From a virus, in the IMG/VR virus record IMGVR_UViG_3300029258_002040, positions 1 to 42,782 of that record: a DNA stretch of 42,782 bases. The stretch is one strand, 5' to 3'. The position numbers were made by a program, and so were the translations under genes. Of this stretch, positions 2,551 to 42,782 are shown piece by piece. Below the pieces are notes generated by a model. The model saw only the letters and a list, made by a program, of their open reading frames with translations. It had not been told where the DNA came from and did not search any database. Numbering within the stretch: the stretch's first letter is position 1; the number at the start of each line of letters is the position of its first letter.

Positions 2551-4639
2551 TTACGCCTCCTTTTGTAACACCAGCCTGTCCGATAGCCTGACCGAGCGCG
2601 AGCTGTTGCGGATTCGCTGCTGCTGCCGGTCCTGGGATCTGAGCGGCCTGTTGCTGCTGGACGAGCTGCTGAGCCTGAGACTGATAGAAAAGCTCAAGAT
2701 GCTGCGAAATGTGATCTTCAAGGTTGATTTTCGTATCCTGCGGGAGACTCGGATAGTCATAGAGCTGCACATGCGCCGGGAGATGTTTCGTATGATCCTC
2801 ACCCGGCAATACGATGATCCGTTGACCATACATGAGCATCCGCTTGTTTTCGTCGTACGGATCCCGGAAATGACCTGGCATCGGTATCGGATGCTTCCGC
2901 ATGAATCGTTCTGTTCCGCGGATATTCGAGCGCTCCAGGAAGATCTTGACAACTTCCCGCGGCTCCAATTCGTTGAAAAGCGGAGGGATCTGTCCGAGCA
3001 CCTGGACACCGTTGACGAACTGCTGAAAATCGATCAGGCGGTTTCCAAGATAGCCGCCGAGCGTGAAATCGAACTCGTATTCGTCGTTGTAAAGCTGTGC
3101 CGAGGACCACCGATACCATTCTCCGGTTTCTCCCTGTACCTGGATTACCCGGTTTGGATCCTGGAATTGCTTGTTGAGGATATAGCGATCGCGATATTGA
3201 CGGCCCAACTCGACTTGAGCGACTTGAGCTTTCAGGTCGATCCGAAAACTCGCCCCTTGGGTACGGACAGAAACTTCCGTTGCTGTCGTATTGCTCTTAG
3301 TGCCCTCGCCGCGGCCGACTTCCGGATCGCCGTTGATATCGTCCATCTTCCGGATCGCCCGATCTTCTTCGATATACGCGTCAGCTGTTACGTTATTCGC
3401 CTCGAACCACTTCAGCTGATTGACATCGCGTACCTGATGAATACCGCCAGGTGTAAAAGTCAAACGACGCTGCTTGAGGCCAGCGCCGAATCCTGCGAAG
3501 ATCTGTTTGTGGACGATCCTGTGGACATTATCGAGCCTCTGGTTAAGGTGAGTATTTGCCTCATCTTCGAGATCCAGAACCGGCTCCATGCATCCCATTC
3601 CGACAAAAGAATCGTCAACGATCGTGCTGCGATAGAGATAAACCGGAAGGATGCCTGTGTCAAATGGATTGTCTCGATATCTGATCAGCTGATTCTCGCC
3701 AACAGCCATCAGATATTTGCCGTCCCAACGCTCGATAACGCGAACCATATTCTCGCCAGTATCGACAAACCTGGTCTGATTCGTTCGCTGCATCTCCCCT
3801 TCTTCACCGTAAAGCCCGTCCCTCATGCCGACGAGCTTATCCGTATTTTGGTATAAAGGGCTGTCCTGTAGATAACTGAGAGGCTTGAAATATTCTCGGT
3901 AAAAGTATCGAAAGTCCTCGAATGGATCTGTCGCGTCCGGGTTCCACCAGAAATGACGAACGTCAACGAACGTGTTAATAGCCCAATCCTTGATGATTTC
4001 ATTATCACTCTCGATCCTGGCAACACCGATTACCCTCCCCCTGTTGTCATACATCGGCTCTCTGCTTACTTTCGGACCTTCCTCGAACGCCCAGGACAGC
4101 AGCATAGGAGACAATCCGAGGCGTTCTCCCTGCTTTATCCAGCGTGTTACAAGCGTCAAAGCCTGCTGTTTCTGCGTGAAGCCATATCGGAGATCCTGCT
4201 GGATCGCCCGGGCCTTATATTCGGCCCATTCTGAATTTTGATCGTTCGGCCTTACCGAGACGGGAGGATCAAATCCAAGGACGGATGGAACGATTTTGGA
4301 AGTCTGGCTTTCGACTTGTTTGTAGGCGTGGCGAACCTTCAGGTTCGATCGCCAGCCTTTTTCGAGGTCCGTTGCTCGCAGCTGTTTCTTGACGCCGTAG
4401 TACGATTTATCACATTGTTTCCACATGTAGTCATAATACCCGGCTCGAAAATTCCTGCAAGCGGTGAACTGTCGATTGAAGCGGCCAACGAGCTCTCGCT
4501 CGAAATCTTCTCTTGTGCGGTATGCTATTTTTCCGAAAGGCGTGTCAGTATAGCGGAGTCGGCTCTGGAGCTTTTCATCTTCCATGAAGGCCGATACCCG
4601 GTTCTGGAACAGATTTGCTGTCGGAATCTGTAATCCCAT
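2540..4639 (-). CDS. Portal protein
   Basis: 699 residues. I place the start at the ATG at 4639, which has GGGAGG a few bases upstream; a longer frame from a TTG at 4699 lacks a ribosome site and overlaps the promoter. The protein has the length and layout of P22/podovirus portals: an N-terminal helical clip/wing region, a central segment containing DLEDEANTHLNQRLDN, and a Gln/Ala-rich C-terminus (QQLVQQQQAAQ), typical of the portal barrel end. It would form the dodecameric DNA channel and head nucleation vertex, and it sits between the terminase unit and the scaffold as expected. Confidence 0.87.
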   Translation of the reverse strand: MGLQIPTANLFQNRVSAFMEDEKLQSRLRYTDTPFGKIAYRTREDFERELVGRFNRQFTACRNFRAGYYDYMWKQCDKSYYGVKKQLRATDLEKGWRSNLKVRHAYKQVESQTSKIVPSVLGFDPPVSVRPNDQNSEWAEYKARAIQQDLRYGFTQKQQALTLVTRWIKQGERLGLSPMLLSWAFEEGPKVSREPMYDNRGRVIGVARIESDNEIIKDWAINTFVDVRHFWWNPDATDPFEDFRYFYREYFKPLSYLQDSPLYQNTDKLVGMRDGLYGEEGEMQRTNQTRFVDTGENMVRVIERWDGKYLMAVGENQLIRYRDNPFDTGILPVYLYRSTIVDDSFVGMGCMEPVLDLEDEANTHLNQRLDNVHRIVHKQIFAGFGAGLKQRRLTFTPGGIHQVRDVNQLKWFEANNVTADAYIEEDRAIRKMDDINGDPEVGRGEGTKSNTTATEVSVRTQGASFRIDLKAQVAQVELGRQYRDRYILNKQFQDPNRVIQVQGETGEWYRWSSAQLYNDEYEFDFTLGGYLGNRLIDFQQFVNGVQVLGQIPPLFNELEPREVVKIFLERSNIRGTERFMRKHPIPMPGHFRDPYDENKRMLMYGQRIIVLPGEDHTKHLPAHVQLYDYPSLPQDTKINLEDHISQHLELFYQSQAQQLVQQQQAAQIPGPAAAANPQQLALGQAIGQAGVTKGGVNAA

Positions 4640-13391: not shown

Positions 13392-13421
13392 AGCCCGGAG
13401 CTAACCCCTCCGGGCTTTTTT
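13392..13421 (+). terminator. Strong intrinsic terminator of the rightward operon
   Basis: AGCCCGGAG (13392-13400) and CTCCGGGCT (13408-13416) form a perfect 9-bp stem with a 7-base loop, followed directly by a run of six T residues. It lies just after the 13372 stop. Confidence 0.9.
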
Positions 13422-13880: not shown

Positions 13881-14840
13881 TCAGAGGATCTGGTGGTTTC
13901 CGTTTTCCTGGTTCTCCGCTTTTTTGAGATCTTCGATCAGTTTTCTTTTTCTTCGTTGCTGGATCGATTCTTTGACGCGTTGGCTGCTGGCGGTCTTTGT
14001 GCTGTTCGATGCTTTGGCTGGATTGGCGAGTGCTGCTGCGACGTCGATGATGGTCCGTTCGATTGGCTGCTCGGTTGGCTGGTCGGTTGGCTCGGCTGGC
14101 GTTTGGCTGTCCTGTTCTTCGGCTTCCGGCGAGCCGGCCGGAGCGCCTTTTGTGGGCGCGTCCGTGGCGGCGGCTTTTCGCTGTTCCTTCGAGGTATTAG
14201 AGTATAACGTATTACCTTTATCTTCCTCTTCCTCTTCTATAGGGGCGCTAAATGACTTTTCGGGGGTACATCCAAGCGATTTTTGGCTTTTTGTATCTTG
14301 TTGGTCTGGCGGCTCTTCTGGATTTCGTCCTGTGTTTAATAATTGACTTTTGTCATTAATAATTATTGACATGTCGATGTCATGCCTGTGTCGTGCCTGT
14401 GTCATGCCTGTGTCATGCCCCCCCCCTAATAATTGACTTTTGTCAATAATTGATTGACTTTTGTCAATAATTCCGGATTCGTCGGGTATCTCGGCAGGTC
14501 GGCCGACCTTCTTGGGTACTTGAGTCCCCTTTTTCCATTCAATACGAGGGTGCTTACTCCGTACACCATATACCTTTATCCCATATTCCGTGATTTTTAC
14601 AAAATTGACTTTTGTCAATAATTCGAGGTTTCTGATGATCGTTCTGTAGCAACATCCGGTTTGACGGTGCATCCATGCATAATCATAGTCAAGCGGGAGC
14701 AAATCCCGGCCGCAATTCACCGCCGCTATCCATATCGTCACGTAAAGCAGTTTCGCATTTGGAGTCAAATTCAGATAGCGCGGATCGTGTAGGATGAAGT
14801 CGCACTCCAGCTTGGCGAACAGCCTAGTTCCCTTCGGCAT
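13881..14840 (-). CDS. Putative replication initiator with winged-helix domain
   Basis: 319 residues from ATG 14840, chosen because AAGGAGG lies upstream; longer starts lack this. Residues about 15-100 (HDPRYLNLTPNAKLLYVTIW, then TGCCYRTIIRNLELLTKVNFV) look like the N-terminal winged helix of phage replisome organisers. The remaining 200 residues are low-complexity, rich in Gln, Thr, Pro and Glu, with a basic helix near the end. The DNA for residues about 75-165 is packed with short dyads and tandem repeats, the lambda-O-like arrangement of an origin inside the initiator gene. It would load host replication proteins; no helicase or polymerase gene is present. Confidence 0.68.
   Translation of the reverse strand: MPKGTRLFAKLECDFILHDPRYLNLTPNAKLLYVTIWIAAVNCGRDLLPLDYDYAWMHRQTGCCYRTIIRNLELLTKVNFVKITEYGIKVYGVRSKHPRIEWKKGTQVPKKVGRPAEIPDESGIIDKSQSIIDKSQLLGGGHDTGMTQARHRHDIDMSIIINDKSQLLNTGRNPEEPPDQQDTKSQKSLGCTPEKSFSAPIEEEEEDKGNTLYSNTSKEQRKAAATDAPTKGAPAGSPEAEEQDSQTPAEPTDQPTEQPIERTIIDVAAALANPAKASNSTKTASSQRVKESIQQRRKRKLIEDLKKAENQENGNHQIL
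14343..14618. other. Candidate replication origin: iteron-like repeats inside the initiator gene
   Basis: Dyad TTGACTTTTGTCAA occurs intact at 14433-14446, 14454-14467 and 14605-14618, and with one change at 14343-14356. Two copies are exactly 21 bases apart. Four tandem 11-base units (TGTCATGCCTG and variants) fill 14378-14421, preceded by palindrome GACATGTC (14368-14375) and an AT-rich stretch (14335-14367). Since 11 is not a multiple of three, the repetition is kept at DNA level, not protein level. This is the classic make-up of an initiator-bound origin. Confidence 0.65.
14378..14421. repeat. Four tandem 11-bp units
   Basis: Units at 14378, 14389, 14400 and 14411 read TGTCATGCCTG, TGTCGTGCCTG, TGTCATGCCTG and TGTCATGCCCC. 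One unit per helical turn would display the same face to a bound protein. The last unit runs into a tract of nine C residues (14418-14426). Confidence 0.9.
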
Positions 14841-15057
14841 CTCCCTCTTCCCTCCTTCGGAAGCCATCGACAGACATCGATACATATGCATGATGACCGG
14901 TCGGAATCTTCGTCTCGATGACCCTCCGGATCTCCTCGGATGCGATCAAAGCGGCACGCCGCGGCTCGACCGGCATAAAAGAGAATCGCTCGAAGTCATC
15001 TAAAGGTTTGTGATCTATTCTGACGAGGATCTGGATGATCCCCTCTCCCGTGGACAT
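14824..15057 (-). CDS. Small protein upstream of the initiator, function unknown
   Basis: 77 residues from ATG 15057 with GAGGGAAGAGG upstream. Predicted alpha/beta: GIIQILVRIDHKPLDDFERF, then EPRRAALIASEEIRRVIETK, then HHAYVSMSVDGF. Its end overlaps the initiator start by 17 bases and its beginning overlaps the upstream zinc-ribbon gene, so it is co-translated. No family recognised. Confidence 0.65.
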   Translation of the reverse strand: MSTGEGIIQILVRIDHKPLDDFERFSFMPVEPRRAALIASEEIRRVIETKIPTGHHAYVSMSVDGFRRREEGDAEGN

Positions 15058-15980: not shown

Positions 15981-16418
15981 CTAAAACAAGGTTGGTTGCT
16001 CTTTGCCGGTCTTTCTGGAGAGCGATTTATGAATATATGCAGATATCTCTACAAGCTCTGGATATGATAAAATGTCGATCGATCGACAGATCTTCTCTAC
16101 CCGGCTCCGCTTGTTTTTGGATGGCTCGACCGGGAGACGGTCGGTTGTCGCCCACCATATCACGGTGCGGCCCGTTACCGGGCACGGTCCCTCCTTGACC
16201 TCCTCGACGCAGCCACGATCCCGGAGCTCGGTTATCCGGTTCCGGACCGTCTCCGAAGCCGGCTTTCTACCTCCCATGAACATCCGTTCCGCGACCTGGG
16301 CGCCTGTCATGGGGCCGTATAGATGCAGGATCTCGTAGACCTCCTGCCGCTTTTTCGACAGGAGGCCCTCCAATTTGATCTGCTCGTATACTTCAGCGCT
16401 CGTCTTTTTTACCGGCAT
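15981..16418 (-). CDS. Winged helix-turn-helix DNA-binding protein
   Basis: 145 residues from ATG 16418 behind GGAGGAG; an upstream ATG at 16466 lacks a site. Residues about 20-75 (SKKRQEVYEILHLYGPMTGA, VAERMF, then ETVRNRITELRDRGCVEEV) make a winged HTH with the recognition helix near RNRITELRD. A beta wing (TGRTVIWWATT) follows, then a basic helical tail. Likely a DNA-binding protein acting in replication or gene control; target unknown. Confidence 0.78.
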   Translation of the reverse strand: MPVKKTSAEVYEQIKLEGLLSKKRQEVYEILHLYGPMTGAQVAERMFMGGRKPASETVRNRITELRDRGCVEEVKEGPCPVTGRTVIWWATTDRLPVEPSKNKRSRVEKICRSIDILSYPELVEISAYIHKSLSRKTGKEQPTLF

Positions 16419-16605
16419 TTCTCCTCCATTTCTCGGCGTCCGGGCATGTGGCGAAATGCGAGACATACGTGTCCTCGATGCTCCAGACCCCGGTGGATGC
16501 GTTGAAAACCCACCGTTTCTCTGGTTTCTCGTCGAGGATCTGGTTCTTTCCGTATCCGTCCTGTACCCACCTGACCGGAGCTCCGCACGATCTACAAGTC
16601 GTCAT
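16393..16605 (-). CDS. Small zinc-binding phage protein
   Basis: 70 residues from ATG 16605 behind TAGGAGGAAAA. Motif order CRSCGAPVRWV, then RWVFNASTG, then VSHFATCPDAEKWRRN matches a recurrent small phage protein with CxxC plus His/Cys ligands for one zinc. It overlaps the winged-helix gene by 26 bases. Immediately upstream lies the pentanucleotide repeat region. Function unknown. Confidence 0.75.
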   Translation of the reverse strand: MTTCRSCGAPVRWVQDGYGKNQILDEKPEKRWVFNASTGVWSIEDTYVSHFATCPDAEKWRRNAGKKDER

Positions 16606-16850: not shown

Positions 16851-17441
16851 CTATTCCTCCTCCCACTCGAAGATACCTTTTCCCGAGTTTCTCCATTGTC
16901 CAAGGCCTCTAAGAGCTCCGTAGTCCAGCCACTCCTCGATGAGCGTTTCGAGCTCTTTTGCGAGCGAAATAATTTCGATCCGCATAACTGAGCCTGCCGG
17001 AACTGTTTCTGATCTCATGAGGGTGACTCTCTCGCCCTGGGGAGTATCGACCCTGGCTGGACGCTCGCACAATCCACTTTCCGGATCTCCCGGAAACTCG
17101 ACAAATATGAATCTTGGCTTGACGAAGATAAGACCGTCGATCTTTTTCTTGTATGCTGTCAGCTTCTTTGACAGCGTATTGTCTGCACTACGGAGAGACT
17201 TGCAGGCATCCTTGAAAAATCCCTTGATCTGATAATCGTAGATACCGATCTTTTCGGCTCCCTCCGGCCCATTCCGATGAAAAATGGTCGAGCCCTGTTC
17301 AGCCATGTGCTCGGCGGTCTCCAACTCGTCCTGCCGGAGATCCTCATCCGGACATTTCTTTCCGATGAAGTCATCGAAGAGCTTCTTGTTCGCCGGTTTC
17401 GTTCCTAGCATTTCCTCAAGTAATGTCAATTTCACCTTCAT
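16851..17441 (-). CDS. Putative Cas7/RAMP-fold protein
   Basis: 196 residues from ATG 17441 (AAGGAGG seven bases before). Sequence layout resembles RAMP/Cas7-type RNA-recognition folds: KVKLTLLEE at the start, YDYQIKGFFKDACKSLR (about 69-84) where Cas7 proteins have their LKG-R helix, ETVPAGSVMRIEI (145-157) like the pre-C-terminal strand, and a glycine-rich loop GLGQWRNSGKGIFEW (179-193). It overlaps the RuvC-like gene by four bases. No CRISPR array is present, so any role would be RNA or DNA binding in replication or recombination. Fold assignment is a resemblance by eye. Confidence 0.6.
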   Translation of the reverse strand: MKVKLTLLEEMLGTKPANKKLFDDFIGKKCPDEDLRQDELETAEHMAEQGSTIFHRNGPEGAEKIGIYDYQIKGFFKDACKSLRSADNTLSKKLTAYKKKIDGLIFVKPRFIFVEFPGDPESGLCERPARVDTPQGERVTLMRSETVPAGSVMRIEIISLAKELETLIEEWLDYGALRGLGQWRNSGKGIFEWEEE

Positions 17442-17908
17442 TTTCTGGCCTCCTTGTCGTAATAGTATGCGGCAACCGCGAAGGCCTGCCATATATCCCT
17501 TTTGAAGCCGTAGAACAGCCCGGGCTCCTTTTTCGAGCCCTTGCCCTTATTCGGCGCTCCAGGCGCGTATCTATCGATGAGAGCCTGGGTAACATTGGAA
17601 TCCTTGGCCCTTGCTGAGCCGCAGAAATAATTCTTGATATCGCCTCGGAATACCCGGTCATGGACTCCGAAGGCCTGGCAGAATCGGCCAATCCAGTAGA
17701 CAGTCTCGAAGATTGAGGCGCCGACCGGCATCCCGTAGCTTGCGACCATTTCGCATACCAGGATGTCGGCTCGGCTTTTCCTCTGAGCTGTGATGATCGC
17801 CCGGAGAAGCAGATTGTTCTCGTGGATACCGCAGCTGTGTATCCTCTCGCCGTCGTACAAAACGAAGGCCGATTCTGTAGTGCCTGGATCGATTCCTAAG
17901 ATCCTCAT
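17438..17908 (-). CDS. RuvC-like Holliday junction resolvase
   Basis: 156 residues, the RuvC size. GIDPGTTESAF gives the first catalytic Asp (Asp7), DILVCEM the Glu (Glu53), and the C-terminal FKRDIWQAFAVAAYYY carries the last acidic residue (Asp138). This is the RNase H-like nuclease core. It would cut four-way junctions and branched replication intermediates before packaging. Overlapping stops and starts tie it to the HD gene and the RAMP-like gene. Confidence 0.85.
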   Translation of the reverse strand: MRILGIDPGTTESAFVLYDGERIHSCGIHENNLLLRAIITAQRKSRADILVCEMVASYGMPVGASIFETVYWIGRFCQAFGVHDRVFRGDIKNYFCGSARAKDSNVTQALIDRYAPGAPNKGKGSKKEPGLFYGFKRDIWQAFAVAAYYYDKEARK

Positions 17909-18474
17909 TTCTTTGGGATCTCCGCTCTGCTCGCCTCGACCATATCTGCCGTATGCAGAGCGAGCGTGAACCGGGTATCATGCATCGCTTTTGACAGAGC
18001 CGACGTTGCGGCAAAATCGGTCAGACCATGAGCTCCCATATGCCACCGGATTGCCAGGATCTCCTCATCGGTCAGCTGGACGAATCGGGAGATGATGAAT
18101 ACGGACTTCTCACCGTGACCGGCCGGGAACTTGTCATCGACCGTATAGAAGTCGTAAGACTCCCAGTTACCCTGTTTGTTCTTGCGGTTTCGCTTTTCGG
18201 TGGTATAGAAATTGACCTTGCATACGTCATGGAAAATGCCCAGGAGGATAACCTGATCCCGGTCCATGCCGCACTCAAAGGCTTCGTTGAAGGTTTTAAG
18301 GTGTTTTGCGACACCGAGGCTGTGCTCGGCTAAGCCTCCTGGCTTGGAGCCGTGGTACTGCGTGGACGCTGGAGCGGTCCAGAAATCAGTACCGTCCAAC
18401 CAGGAGAGAAGATCGGAAACACCGGGCCGGCCGCAACTCTTGACGAGGTTGCGGATGTTGTCCTCGGCCGTCAT
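17905..18474 (-). CDS. HD-domain phosphohydrolase
   Basis: 189 residues. H51 in LAEHSLGV, the H82-D83 doublet in LGIFHDVCKVNFY, H120 in GHGEKSV and H145 in IRWHMGAHG are the metal-binding residues of an HD hydrolase, and YTVDDKFPAGH is typical of the phage and Firmicutes-like members. Substrates in this family include nucleotides. Likely cytosolic nucleotide or nucleic-acid hydrolase acting with the replication genes; the precise substrate is not visible. Confidence 0.85.
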   Translation of the reverse strand: MTAEDNIRNLVKSCGRPGVSDLLSWLDGTDFWTAPASTQYHGSKPGGLAEHSLGVAKHLKTFNEAFECGMDRDQVILLGIFHDVCKVNFYTTEKRNRKNKQGNWESYDFYTVDDKFPAGHGEKSVFIISRFVQLTDEEILAIRWHMGAHGLTDFAATSALSKAMHDTRFTLALHTADMVEASRAEIPKK

Positions 18475-18929
18475 ATAATAGTTTCTTCGCCTTCCTCTCC
18501 AGCAGGCTCCTCGGCTTGACCCGGCTCTTTCTTCTCCTGCTTCTCCGGATCCTTCTCCTCTCCCTCATGCTCCGGGAAGAGCTCCCCCTGGGTGTTCTGT
18601 ACGCTGATCGCGACGACGGCCTTTTTCCGGGCGAGCCGGAATAGATCCTCCAGCTGGCGGGGCGTTCCCTTCATCTCGGCAAGGCTCATCTTCGCGTTGC
18701 AGACCTCGAATGTCGCGATTTTTCCTTCGAGGACGACCTTATCCTGGGAGAGCTCCTCGGCGAGCTTCTGGATCGCCTCCTCGGATATCTTCTTCATCTG
18801 ATCGTAAGCATTGTTATAGAGCTTCTGGAGAGCGGCCGGATCTTTCGCCTTCTTGTTGACCATCTCCGTCGTAAGCTCGTTTTTCTTGAACCGCTTGAGC
18901 AGATTCACGACTAACTGATTCTGTGCCAT
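18471..18929 (-). CDS. Hypothetical protein with acidic tail
   Basis: 152 residues from ATG 18929 (AGGAGAAAGACGAA). Residues 1-115 are helical with a short strand (KVVLEGKIATFEV); the last 40 are Glu/Pro/Gly-rich and probably disordered. No domain recognised. It sits between the SMC-like ATPase and the HD gene, overlapping the latter by four bases, so it could be an accessory subunit of either. Confidence 0.62.
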   Translation of the reverse strand: MAQNQLVVNLLKRFKKNELTTEMVNKKAKDPAALQKLYNNAYDQMKKISEEAIQKLAEELSQDKVVLEGKIATFEVCNAKMSLAEMKGTPRQLEDLFRLARKKAVVAISVQNTQGELFPEHEGEEKDPEKQEKKEPGQAEEPAGEEGEETII

Positions 18930-18941
18930 TTCGTCTTTCTC

Positions 18942-20645
18942 CTATAATTTTTTGACTGTTCCGTTTTCGATCCAGTAATAGCTTGCGAATTTGCTGGATT
19001 TCATGTTTTCGACATCAGCCTTTCGCTTGGCTTGGATAAAGATGACCGGCCGGATCTTGGCGATTCTGGTCAAATCGGCGGTCAGGGACTTTTTGAGCTC
19101 GTCGGATATGATGAGATCCCCGCGGTCGATGAGACAGAACGGGAACTGGAAGAGCTCCAGGATGGCGCTTTGAAACACAATGCAGAGGCGATACTTCTCT
19201 GTATCGCTGAGCATCGGCATCGGACGCCCATGATAGGTGATGTTAAGATCCTCATCGATCTCGACATCCCCCGGGAGGATTGCCTGCTGCGAGATGATCT
19301 CCCGAAGCGGATCGATCCCGGACCCGATCGATTCCTTTTCGAGCTCCGGGAGCGTGTGGCATATCGTATTCCACCGCTCCCATGCCTCCTTGTTCGCCGC
19401 GTTGGAGGCTTCGCTCTTCCGGTGCTGTTCGAGCCGGGCGTTATACTCGATGATCTTATCGCGCATCTCTTTTCCCTTCTTGAGTCGATCGCGAAGATCG
19501 TCGATGTTTTTGGAGAGCTCCTGACGGACCTCATCCGGAGTATCGGCGAGCTCGATATCGTTCTCGATCTGAGACAGGCGCCGGATGAGCTCCTCCGAGT
19601 TTTGCGGAGGCTTCACTTCCTTGAGCTCGTTTCCGGCTTTTGTCGCATTTTCGAGCGCTTCTTCGGCCGTCTTGACCTTTTTCTGGATCTGCTCCATGGC
19701 GCCCTGATCGAAACTGGTCTTGAAGGCGACCTTTTTCCGGCAATCCTCGCAGAAATCGATATCCTTGAGCTGAGACAGGATATTCGTCGTTGTTTCCACA
19801 TTCCGGAGCTTTGACGCTTCCTGTTCCAGCTTGAGCTCTGCATCGCCGACAGCCTTGAGCAATACGTTCTTTTTCTTGAGATATTCGTCGTATCGCTCGC
19901 GCCGATCTTTCGCGCTATCGATCGATTTGCGGAGGCCGTCCATCTCCTCCATGAGCTCTTTTTTCTCCTCATCGGTGATGTTGATCGTGATCTCACCGTA
20001 TTTCTGGAGTTTGCTATCGAGCTCGGCCTGGACCTTCTCGATCGCGTTCTCGATCTTTTCCAGGATGCCGTCGTCGCTGCATCGGAGGACAGTCGGCTCC
20101 TCCCGCAAGATAACATCTTCGGGAGGACTTCCTTCGGTCTGTTTTCGAGATGCTCGCTCGGTTGCGGCATATTTGGCCGCTTTCTTTATATCCGAGTCGA
20201 TAAGCTCGTTGATCAGATCCGTGTATTCATCTCCCAGGCGCTCCCGGAGAGCCTGTTTCCAATCGAACTCCAGCTGGAGGACTTCCGAGAGCAATTCCTT
20301 GAGATCTGACGGATTTTTGGACCGAAGGATGTCCGGGTCCAGGCAGTACGGCAGCGCTTTTCTGCTGACGCCCAGGGCATCGGCCACGCTTCCGGCGTTC
20401 GGCGTCTGGCTGGAGCTGGCCTTGAACTTCCAGTCTTCTCCCTCCAGCTCCGTGATCCATCTGTCTCCCAGGATCTTTTTATCCTTTGCCTTGACTTCGC
20501 GAACCGTGAGGCCAAGACAAGCGAAGATCGAATCCCGGAGGGATGTCTTTCCGGCCGCGTTCTCACCCATGACGATAGAAAGTGGAGTCGTGAAGCTGAC
20601 TTCCGCTTCCTTCAAGCCGATGAAATTCTTCACTCTCAATTTCAT
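18942..20645 (-). CDS. SbcC/Rad50-like ATPase with zinc-hook motif
   Basis: 567 residues. Walker A is GENAAGKTS (27-35). Long coiled-coil arms flank a CxxC at FCEDC (Cys299, Cys302), the position of a Rad50 zinc hook. An ABC signature-like LSDTEK (479-484) and Walker B FCLIDRGD (503-510, with a non-standard RGD) close the ATPase head. It is shorter than cellular SbcC, and no SbcD/Mre11 phosphoesterase gene is nearby. It overlaps the gp3-like gene by four bases. Probably a DNA-end or recombination ATPase. Confidence 0.82.
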   Translation of the reverse strand: MKLRVKNFIGLKEAEVSFTTPLSIVMGENAAGKTSLRDSIFACLGLTVREVKAKDKKILGDRWITELEGEDWKFKASSSQTPNAGSVADALGVSRKALPYCLDPDILRSKNPSDLKELLSEVLQLEFDWKQALRERLGDEYTDLINELIDSDIKKAAKYAATERASRKQTEGSPPEDVILREEPTVLRCSDDGILEKIENAIEKVQAELDSKLQKYGEITINITDEEKKELMEEMDGLRKSIDSAKDRRERYDEYLKKKNVLLKAVGDAELKLEQEASKLRNVETTTNILSQLKDIDFCEDCRKKVAFKTSFDQGAMEQIQKKVKTAEEALENATKAGNELKEVKPPQNSEELIRRLSQIENDIELADTPDEVRQELSKNIDDLRDRLKKGKEMRDKIIEYNARLEQHRKSEASNAANKEAWERWNTICHTLPELEKESIGSGIDPLREIISQQAILPGDVEIDEDLNITYHGRPMPMLSDTEKYRLCIVFQSAILELFQFPFCLIDRGDLIISDELKKSLTADLTRIAKIRPVIFIQAKRKADVENMKSSKFASYYWIENGTVKKL

Positions 20646-21646
20646 ATAAGAACCTCCTCCTCCGGCTCATCGACAGCTGGCGCCTGCTCCTCCGGAGCTG
20701 GCTTCTGTTCTGTTTCAGCTGTGGGAGCCTTTTTGCCGAAATTCGCCTTCTTTTTGCTCGGCGGCGGTTCTTTGAGCTTCTTCGTCTTTGTATCAACGAG
20801 AGCCCCGCTTGCGTTTTCCTGGGTATCCGGATAGAACTCCTCCGGATCCGTCTCGGCGTCGTTATCGTCGAATACGTCCGTGAGGGCAAGCTCTTTCCTG
20901 GCCTTGGCCTCCGCATGTTCGATCTGGAGGACATCTTTTGCCTCCGTCTCGACATAAGCGAGGACTTCCTGGCGTAGATCGTGCATATTGCCATGATATT
21001 CGACGGAAAGAAAATACACCGTCTGCGCTTTTCCCTGGACCTGGGCGAGCGTCTGGTTGATCCGAAGATAAAGCGGAAGCCCGGCGATCTTGCCCCTCGC
21101 CGACAAGTGGATCAGCGCGAGCCCTCCCATAAGGGAGCTGATGCTGTTCCAGCTCGTTGTCCTAAATTTCGCTACCCCACCGAGTTGAGCATGTGGAAAC
21201 ATGACGCTCAAGATGCCGTTGGGCTTGCAGATCTTCCGCTTGAGAGCCTCGCAGCGCATCGGATCACATATCCCCTCAGGCAGCTTTCCGTCGCCGCAGC
21301 CGATCCGTTCCTCGCCGTTGCCCTTGCACATGCAGTCTCGGCCTTTATACATCCGATACGCCGTGTGCAGCACAAGGCTCAAATCGTTGTAGAGCGTGAC
21401 AACAGGACCGATAACGGTCGGCTTCTTCGGATCCCCGTCGATGAGCTCCGATCCGAGAGACTCCATCAGATCGAAATCCGGGATGAAATTGTCGTTCTCA
21501 TCCTTCTCTAAATTGCAGATCCGGATGTGATCGTATTTCACGGGGAGCCGGTATTCTCCTCCATCCTTTGATTTTCGCTTTTCTCCATGCCCCCCGATTT
21601 TGATCTTCCACCTTTCCGGGAGGCGTCCGGTTATGCCTCTTATCAT
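20642..21646 (-). CDS. gp3-like protein (recombination directionality factor family)
   Basis: 334 residues. The first 220 follow the order of the gp3-like RDF domain: basic KIKIGG start, GPVVTLYNDLSL, a Cys cluster (Cys105, 107, 117, 127, 132, 140), CKPNGILSVMFPHA, RTTSWNSISSLMGGL, KIAGLPLYLRI and TVYFLSVEY. Experimentally studied relatives reverse serine integrases; many others sit in phages without one, as here. The last 100 residues are a disordered, Lys/Glu/Pro-rich tail. Its role here may be DNA binding in recombination or replication. Confidence 0.7.
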   Translation of the reverse strand: MIRGITGRLPERWKIKIGGHGEKRKSKDGGEYRLPVKYDHIRICNLEKDENDNFIPDFDLMESLGSELIDGDPKKPTVIGPVVTLYNDLSLVLHTAYRMYKGRDCMCKGNGEERIGCGDGKLPEGICDPMRCEALKRKICKPNGILSVMFPHAQLGGVAKFRTTSWNSISSLMGGLALIHLSARGKIAGLPLYLRINQTLAQVQGKAQTVYFLSVEYHGNMHDLRQEVLAYVETEAKDVLQIEHAEAKARKELALTDVFDDNDAETDPEEFYPDTQENASGALVDTKTKKLKEPPPSKKKANFGKKAPTAETEQKPAPEEQAPAVDEPEEEVLI

Positions 21647-21651
21647 CTTTC

Positions 21652-21861
21652 TTAATCTCCTTTGGCCTGTAATGCGGCCAATACGACTTGATGCGCCATG
21701 AGCGCCTTATCGATATCGGCCTTTGTTTTTTCCCGCAAAGCCAAGAGACATTCTCTATGGACTTTGGACGAGATCTTTTCCGTAACCTTGACATCTCCGC
21801 TATTCGCATCCCGGCCACAGGCGGTCAGGTTGTCGCCGTTATTGCGATAGCACGGATCCAT
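21652..21861 (-). CDS. Small protein, function unknown
   Basis: 69 residues from ATG 21861, set by the excellent ribosome site AAAGGGGGTGAT. Longer in-frame starts overlap the nuclease gene and code for unlikely sequence. N-terminus MDPCYRNNGDNLTACGRDA has two Cys; the rest is a helix (ALREKTKADIDKALMAHQVV). Lies between the nuclease and gp3-like genes. Family not recognised. Confidence 0.65.
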   Translation of the reverse strand: MDPCYRNNGDNLTACGRDANSGDVKVTEKISSKVHRECLLALREKTKADIDKALMAHQVVLAALQAKGD

Positions 21862-21875
21862 ATTATCACCCCCTT

Positions 21876-22733
21876 TCATCTCAAGCAGATAAGATGTTCG
21901 TTTATCTCCGCTTCCGGGCTCGAATATCGATGAGGGAAGCAGAGAGGATGATACGGACAAAGCAGCCCGTAGGCCCCGATACAGCTGGCCGTATTCATCC
22001 TGTATTCGTTCGTTTTTTCGCATCTGCATATCGCGTCTGCCGTCTGCCGAAGCATATTAAAGACGGCGAAATGGTCGTCGTCGTTCATCTCAATCTCGAA
22101 TCGATCCAGGATCGGCTCTTTCTTGTGCTTCGTTATCACCAGGAAGGAGCCTTCGTTCTGTACGTCGTAACCTCCGCAGGCCTCGACGTATCGATATGTC
22201 TGCATCTGTTGAGATCCCAGAGCATCCTCCGGCTTCCATCGATTTCTGGATGTCTTGAGATCCGACATTATGAGTCTGCCGTCATAGCGCTCAAGCATAT
22301 CTCTCGTTCCGCAGATCTCGAATCTCTCCATATTCCCGGGAGTATCTCCAGTATCCGGATCTACTGGCGTAGCGTGTAGATATGTTTCGTGCTCCAGGAC
22401 ATCGATCTCCTCGGCCATGAGCCGGTTGTGCATCCGCTCGGCGAGCTGGATATCTGCCTCGATATCGCCTTCATCTCGATCAATAATCTTCCCCTCTGAT
22501 CCCTCATCAGCCGCCTCAAGAGTTCCGCGACGCCATTGAGTCTTAAAAGGTGTGAAGTTTCTGAATTGAAATGTTTGATGGAGGAGAATCCCGAAAGCAA
22601 GATTTTTACCCGTCTTTGCCTCACGCCATCCTTCGACATGCTTCCAGTAATATTTCTTTTCGCACTCAAGGATGAGGGAGAGCTTTATCCCGGACCCTCC
22701 TGACGGGCTGAACCGCAGGATGTCATTTTGCAC
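21876..22733 (-). CDS. PD-(D/E)XK nuclease, Cas4/RecB-like, probable Fe-S
   Basis: 285 residues from a GTG at 22733 overlapping the RHH gene. H52 in LLHQTF, D145 in GTRDML, the D158-L-K160 motif and Q176/Y180 (QQMQTYRY) match the RecB/Cas4 nuclease core. Cys24 (ILECEKKYYW) and Cys251, 259 and 265 (CIGAYGLLCPYHPLCF) fit the four-Cys iron-sulfur pattern of Cas4 and AddB. It would process DNA ends in recombination-dependent replication or host DNA breakdown. Confidence 0.83.
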   Translation of the reverse strand: MQNDILRFSPSGGSGIKLSLILECEKKYYWKHVEGWREAKTGKNLAFGILLHQTFQFRNFTPFKTQWRRGTLEAADEGSEGKIIDRDEGDIEADIQLAERMHNRLMAEEIDVLEHETYLHATPVDPDTGDTPGNMERFEICGTRDMLERYDGRLIMSDLKTSRNRWKPEDALGSQQMQTYRYVEACGGYDVQNEGSFLVITKHKKEPILDRFEIEMNDDDHFAVFNMLRQTADAICRCEKTNEYRMNTASCIGAYGLLCPYHPLCFPHRYSSPEAEINEHLICLR

Positions 22734-42132: not shown

Positions 42133-42760
42133 CAAGGCCCTCCTCGTCCTCGTCGTCGGCGAGATGCTTATCGATCGCCGCGATGATTTGAGCGTTCTTC
42201 AACCGGGAAATGTTTCCCGGGATCGGAATCTCATTTTCTTTGACGAAGGCCATAAGCTCGTTGCGGGAATACGTGCGATAATCATCGTCATCCGATTCCT
42301 CTTCTTCTTTGGACTCGGAATCGATAGGCTGATCTTCCTCTTCCTCTGGATCGATGTTATCCTCGATATCCTGCTTGATTACGAGCTTTGTAGCCTCTGC
42401 GTCAGATAGATTGGAGGGGTTCTTGGCGCAAGCTGGAATGTGAACAGCGAAATCGGCTTTTGTCTCAAACTCACCGTCGCAAAAGGGGCAGATATGGAGC
42501 GTCGGAATCCCCTCCGCGATCAATCTGTTTCTGGCCTCGTGTGCATCTTTGTCGATTTCAAAGAGCTGCACATTATAGTCCTTGTGAGCTCTGAGCTTTT
42601 TGATGATGTATTCATCATCAGTCTCGAATCGGCCGCCCTTGAACTTGATCTGCTTTGGCCTTCTGATTACGCGTCGATTACCTGACGGCGTTATGACGGC
42701 CTTAGAGCCCTTGAGGGTGATCTTGAGATTTTTATAAGTCGAATGGAAAAACAGCGCCAT
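42098..42760 (-). CDS. Zinc-finger/SAP-like protein between capsid and adaptor
   Basis: 220 residues from ATG 42760, inside the terminal repeat. N-terminus is beta and basic (KITLKGSKAVITPSGNRRVI). CPFC (Cys91, Cys94) with His107 and Cys111 is a C2HC zinc finger. An acidic linker (EEEEDQPIDSESKEEEESDD) precedes YSRNELMAFVKENEIPIPG and a KNAQIIAAIDKHLAD helix, like a SAP/HeH module that could bind DNA or the portal. Position suits a head-completion or adaptor-associated protein. Its 3' end overlaps the adaptor start by 35 bases. Confidence 0.68.
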   Translation of the reverse strand: MALFFHSTYKNLKITLKGSKAVITPSGNRRVIRRPKQIKFKGGRFETDDEYIIKKLRAHKDYNVQLFEIDKDAHEARNRLIAEGIPTLHICPFCDGEFETKADFAVHIPACAKNPSNLSDAEATKLVIKQDIEDNIDPEEEEDQPIDSESKEEEESDDDDYRTYSRNELMAFVKENEIPIPGNISRLKNAQIIAAIDKHLADDEDEEGLDERTGDSEVSL

Positions 42761-42782
42761 TTTGCCACCTCCGAATTGTTAA
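42639..42782. repeat. Terminal direct repeat, right copy
   Basis: Identical to bases 1-144 and contains the start and ribosome site of the gene at 42098-42760. See the left copy. The exact match without any difference favours an assembly overlap of a circular molecule. Confidence 0.95.

Follow-up and report, generated by a model that had tools for sequence, protein, structure and literature searches.

The virus DNA analysed here very likely carries an intragenic iteron-type replication origin within its own winged-helix initiator gene, working like lambda O and the RepA_N plasmids. We use the term window for the whole stretch studied, the 42,782 nucleotides of IMG/VR record IMGVR_UViG_3300029258_002040. 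This reading rests on direct results: the repeats themselves, which exceed anything the protein sequence requires, and a layout that is found again in related initiator genes. The layout is already known in kind, and the window adds a new and diverged case which places a likely replication origin in an otherwise unannotated phage.

Dyads and direct repeats inside an initiator-like gene

Four TTGAC-TTTT-GTCAA dyads, one of them with one change, lie inside a winged-helix ORF on the minus strand, together with an 11-bp tandem array and an AT-rich stretch. The features are as follows, in window coordinates and with strand where one is assigned:

13881-14891, minus strand: initiator-like ORF (P0001, 336 aa), with a predicted N-terminal winged helix (approximately residues 40-119) followed by a long low-complexity linker and tail
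14605-14618: dyad 1, exact TTGACTTTTGTCAA, in the winged-helix coding region, read as LTKVN in frame 0
14454-14467: dyad 2, exact TTGACTTTTGTCAA, read as IDKSQ in a frame other than that of dyad 1, with 21 bp in common with dyad 1
14433-14446: dyad 3, exact TTGACTTTTGTCAA, 21 bp from dyad 2
14378-14419: array of 3.8 tandem 11-bp units (consensus TGTCATGCCTG, 93% match), read in all three frames, possibly functional
14343-14356: dyad 4, one change, TTGACTTTTGTCAT (..GTCAT), read as NDKSQ
14319-14387: AT-rich stretch, adjoining the 11-mers and surrounding dyad 4, up to 82% AT per 40 bp

The first-pass annotation of this DNA had described the same four dyads and 11-bp units in the initiator-like gene, and our searches recover them there. 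Dyads and array are both absent elsewhere in the probably complete genome; outside the four dyads, the sole further match in the window is at position 3953 and has 3 mismatches. We shuffled synonymous codons within the gene 20,000 times, keeping the protein and its codon usage, and never obtained three exact dyads, nor four dyads when up to one mismatch was allowed. As had been described, two dyads, those starting at 14433 and 14454, are exactly 21 bp apart, but the remaining spacings of 90 and 151 are not whole helical turns. The AT-rich stretch reported beside the repeats is real: positions 14330-14369 are 80% AT, equal to the genome's 99.9th percentile per 40 bp (80%; median 50%), and the longer stretch at 14319-14387 is a candidate unwinding element.

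Probable constraint on the DNA rather than the protein

The annotation had argued that the repeats must be constrained as DNA on the grounds that 11 is not a multiple of three. This argument fails on its own because tandem slippage yields the same out-of-phase pattern, and the 21-bp dyad spacing is divisible by three. Better evidence for DNA constraint comes from dyads 1 and 2, which are identical over the 21 bp GAATTATTGACAAAAGTCAAT while being read in differing frames (LTKVN versus IDKSQ), and from the excess of repeats over synonymous shuffles. We measured this excess with an off-register test, which counts identical 9-mers recurring inverted or in another frame and compares the count with synonymous shuffles. 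The initiator-like gene has 61 off-register repeated pairs versus about 2 in its shuffles, by far the strongest signal among 35 window ORFs. Lambda O, the proven case to which the annotation had likened this gene, served as positive control and scored in the same test (22 versus 1.6, p=0.005). The test is blind to purely in-frame iterons such as those of locus L020, and several short-iteron plasmid relatives (L260-L266) were not significant.

These results bear on whether the repeats could be protein-level or slippage repeats of a disordered linker that have no DNA function. Dyads 2-4 do share one frame (I/N-D-K-S-Q), and slippage would be expected to leave tandem units such as those of 21 bp and 11 bp seen here. 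Dyad 1, however, lies in another frame within the predicted folded domain and keeps the 21-bp identity; the off-register excess and the recurrence in relatives likewise speak against such an origin of the repeats, which we regard as very unlikely.

Less settled is the 11-bp array, which may be a second class of site or else a product of slippage. The period-11 score of the gene is significant versus synonymous shuffles (p = 0.0006). We consider it an even call whether the dyads alone are functional and the array is a slippage-made minisatellite next to the origin. Its units are near-identical and head to tail, it abuts a slippage-prone run of nine C, and no parallel to it was noticed on an unsystematic inspection of the relative loci. 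Against this, the units have TGTC(A/G), which resembles a half-site, as their core, are one helical turn apart and have the dyads and the AT-rich stretch on either side. A more elaborate possibility, which we think unlikely, is that the gene holds two site classes, inverted A-tract dyads (one within the code for the DNA-binding domain) and 11-bp direct repeats that are in helical phase and have a related core half-site. The direct repeats might then be recognised by another form of the initiator, much as dimers bind operators and monomers bind iterons in Rep_3 plasmids. The nine-C run itself (14418-14426; nine G on the coding strand, Gly-Gly-Gly) lies between dyad 3 and the 11-mers, and slippage there could shift the frame of the initiator ORF.

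The same layout in HTH_36-type initiator genes

We asked how often this layout occurs in related phage initiator genes. The query alignment (A1) comprised L020, which had been found via its dyads, and four phage matches to L020 not chosen for repeats. It retrieved 80 viral loci, 61 of them non-redundant and none selected for repeats. Off-register repeats at p <= 0.01 were found in 52 of these 61 relatives versus 1 of 120 control ORFs without overlap with an initiator gene (Fisher p about 1e-34), although the relatives share ancestry and hence do not represent 61 independent events. An earlier control set, with 11 of 150 positive, was dropped as it could include antisense ORFs across the initiator gene. 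The repeats in the relatives cluster directly behind the winged helix. Their phrogs matches are to replication initiation protein, O-like and DnaD-like families, and several adjoin a gene for a DnaB helicase, a DnaC loader or a DnaA-annotated replication protein. A search of the available literature found no paper on internal iterons across HTH_36 phage initiators, which does not prove that none exists.

In most of loci L179-L258, AGTAATACA-like DNA directly follows the iterons. Codon choice at this element is strongly skewed, with Asn written AAT in 110 of 128 cases (205 of 679 elsewhere) and Thr written ACA in 91 of 105 (74 of 747 elsewhere). The skew suggests a conserved AT-rich element, which may be an unwinding element common to the origins of HTH_36 phages.

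A second search used a DNA pattern only, paired TTGAC-N-AAAA-N-RTCAA, and returned 23 viral stretches, of which 20 fall within HTH_36-type genes (E 8e-16 to 2e-25). The iteron copies in these 20 genes are mostly spaced 22-24 bp apart, and in 12 of them the same iteron DNA is read in more than one frame, typically as IDKKIN and LTKKS. The IDKSQ and LTKVN of the window correspond to these two frames, its spacer being shorter by two bases (4 bp versus 6 in the commonest relatives). The window gene has the internal A-tract TTGAC/GTCAA iterons of these genes, at or after the winged helix and readable in two frames. The proposal that the origin lies within the initiator gene is supported by both searches, and judging from sequence the dyads most probably serve as iterons, at which the product of the surrounding gene would bind to an intragenic origin.

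The dyads might instead be operator or partition (centromere) sites of a DNA-binding protein, with no role as a replication origin. TTGAC-N4-GTCAA pairs in the bacterial genome contigs that we scanned are mostly at non-initiator sites, several of them adjoining genes judged by eye to be TetR regulator-like, and the window encodes a second wHTH regulator-like ORF (15981-16466). However, the window dyads lie deep in a coding region with none near another promoter, no ParA/ParB-type match was found among the window ORFs scanned, and the layout recurs in replication initiator genes. We therefore consider operator or partition sites very unlikely. A negative-control pattern, TTCAG-N4-CTGAA, was not clean, as its pairs also fall in phage wHTH genes (L147, L149, L151, L152, L162, L165-L167 and L170, with repeats LQNPEG, VQPTER and VQPAE). 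By their sequence these matches appear to be other iteron types with the same layout, the iteron sequence being variable.

The diverged putative initiator, a proposed model for the origin and the genome setting

P0001 itself appears far diverged from the HTH_36 family, to which its sequence ties it weakly. HTH_36 (PF13730) was the only Pfam family found to E 0.1, below threshold at 16.4 bits (curated cut-off 25, E=0.008), and there was no match to RepA_N (PF06970). Neither an hhalign profile comparison (E=0.066 at 0.8% probability) nor a comparison with a subfamily profile (E=0.75, small database) was significant. A single-sequence structure model failed (pLDDT 40), and an AF2 model whose input alignment consisted of other initiators had a mean pLDDT of 69, high in the helices and about 75-91 across residues 31-100. 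The best PDB fold matches of the AF2 model are RepA_N NTDs, with the DnaD NTD also near the top (E=4e-3 to 0.015, TM about 0.5, the model having drawn on other initiators), which is suggestive only of a winged-helix fold at the N-terminus. We found no homologue of the exact window gene, and no close relatives of it or of a neighbour in IMG/VR or the phage collection. These data suggest that an origin placed inside its initiator gene, even down to the type of iteron, may persist where the protein is nearly unrecognisable, and that the off-register shuffle test could offer a simple route to phage origins from sequence alone.

Under the origin reading, gene 13881-14891 would encode a winged-helix replication initiator with the origin in its own coding sequence. 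We infer binding, dimers, melting, helicase loading and active-origin status as follows. Each TTGAC-AAAA-GTCAA iteron, with its two inverted half-sites joined by an A-tract, would be bound by the initiator, probably as one dimer per dyad; these sites lie within and directly behind the part of the gene that encodes the DNA-binding domain. The initiator would then wrap or bend the DNA so that the adjacent AT-rich stretch opens, and the replisome would be loaded via the host helicase, directly or through an unrecognised loader.

Lambda and Stx O genes carry iterons and an AT-rich tract in mid-gene (PMC7466680). Like ori-lambda, with dyad-symmetric iterons and an AT-rich tract after the DNA-binding domain, the window has both elements within its initiator gene. 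The iteron sequence differs from that of lambda, one window dyad lies within the winged-helix coding part, and the 11-bp array is additional. Lambda also has its P loader gene next door, whereas no replicative helicase, loader or primase was recognised among the window ORFs scanned; several relatives have such a neighbour. RepA_N plasmids carry Rep boxes within rep, whose linker part is dispensable as protein (PMC5703833), and their iterons are described as inverted repeats with a poly-A tract at the point where they meet (PMC7145576). The window resembles pSK41 and pTZ2162 in its in-gene sites, inverted repeats that meet on an A-tract, and may resemble them in fold, the RepA_N NTD being the best solved match of the model; the differences are that these are plasmids rather than phages, that P0001 lacks a RepA_N Pfam match and that the C-terminal domain is not comparable. 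In plasmid pPR9, which replicates, both the RepA_N domain and the origin region are replaced by a pfam13730 (HTH_36) N-terminus of Rep (PMC5703833). With the group of HTH_36 phage initiators and pPR9 Rep the window shares TTGAC-A-rich-RTCAA iterons (read as IDKKIN and LTKKS in the HTH_36 genes), internal in most of the family sampled; the differences are the mostly 6-bp spacer of that group and the far divergence of the window protein.

The window is probably a complete genome: positions 1-144 and 42639-42782 form an exact direct terminal repeat, and because of this 144-bp repeat at both ends a genome of about 42.6 kb is very probably complete. The IMG/VR-type record is nonetheless classed as without end repeats. 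GC skew, which the annotation had offered as a check, gave no origin signal and is uninformative because nearly all window genes share one strand. Searches of the window for RNA families and tRNAs returned none. The window encodes an SU10-like capsid protein, a portal, a terminase and a 1994-aa ORF. Recombination-type genes occupy 17438-22733 (Holliday junction resolvase, SbcC-like ATPase, Gp3-like and PD-(D/E)XK exonuclease), and a strong terminator-like hairpin with a T-run lies at 13392-13416 on the plus strand.
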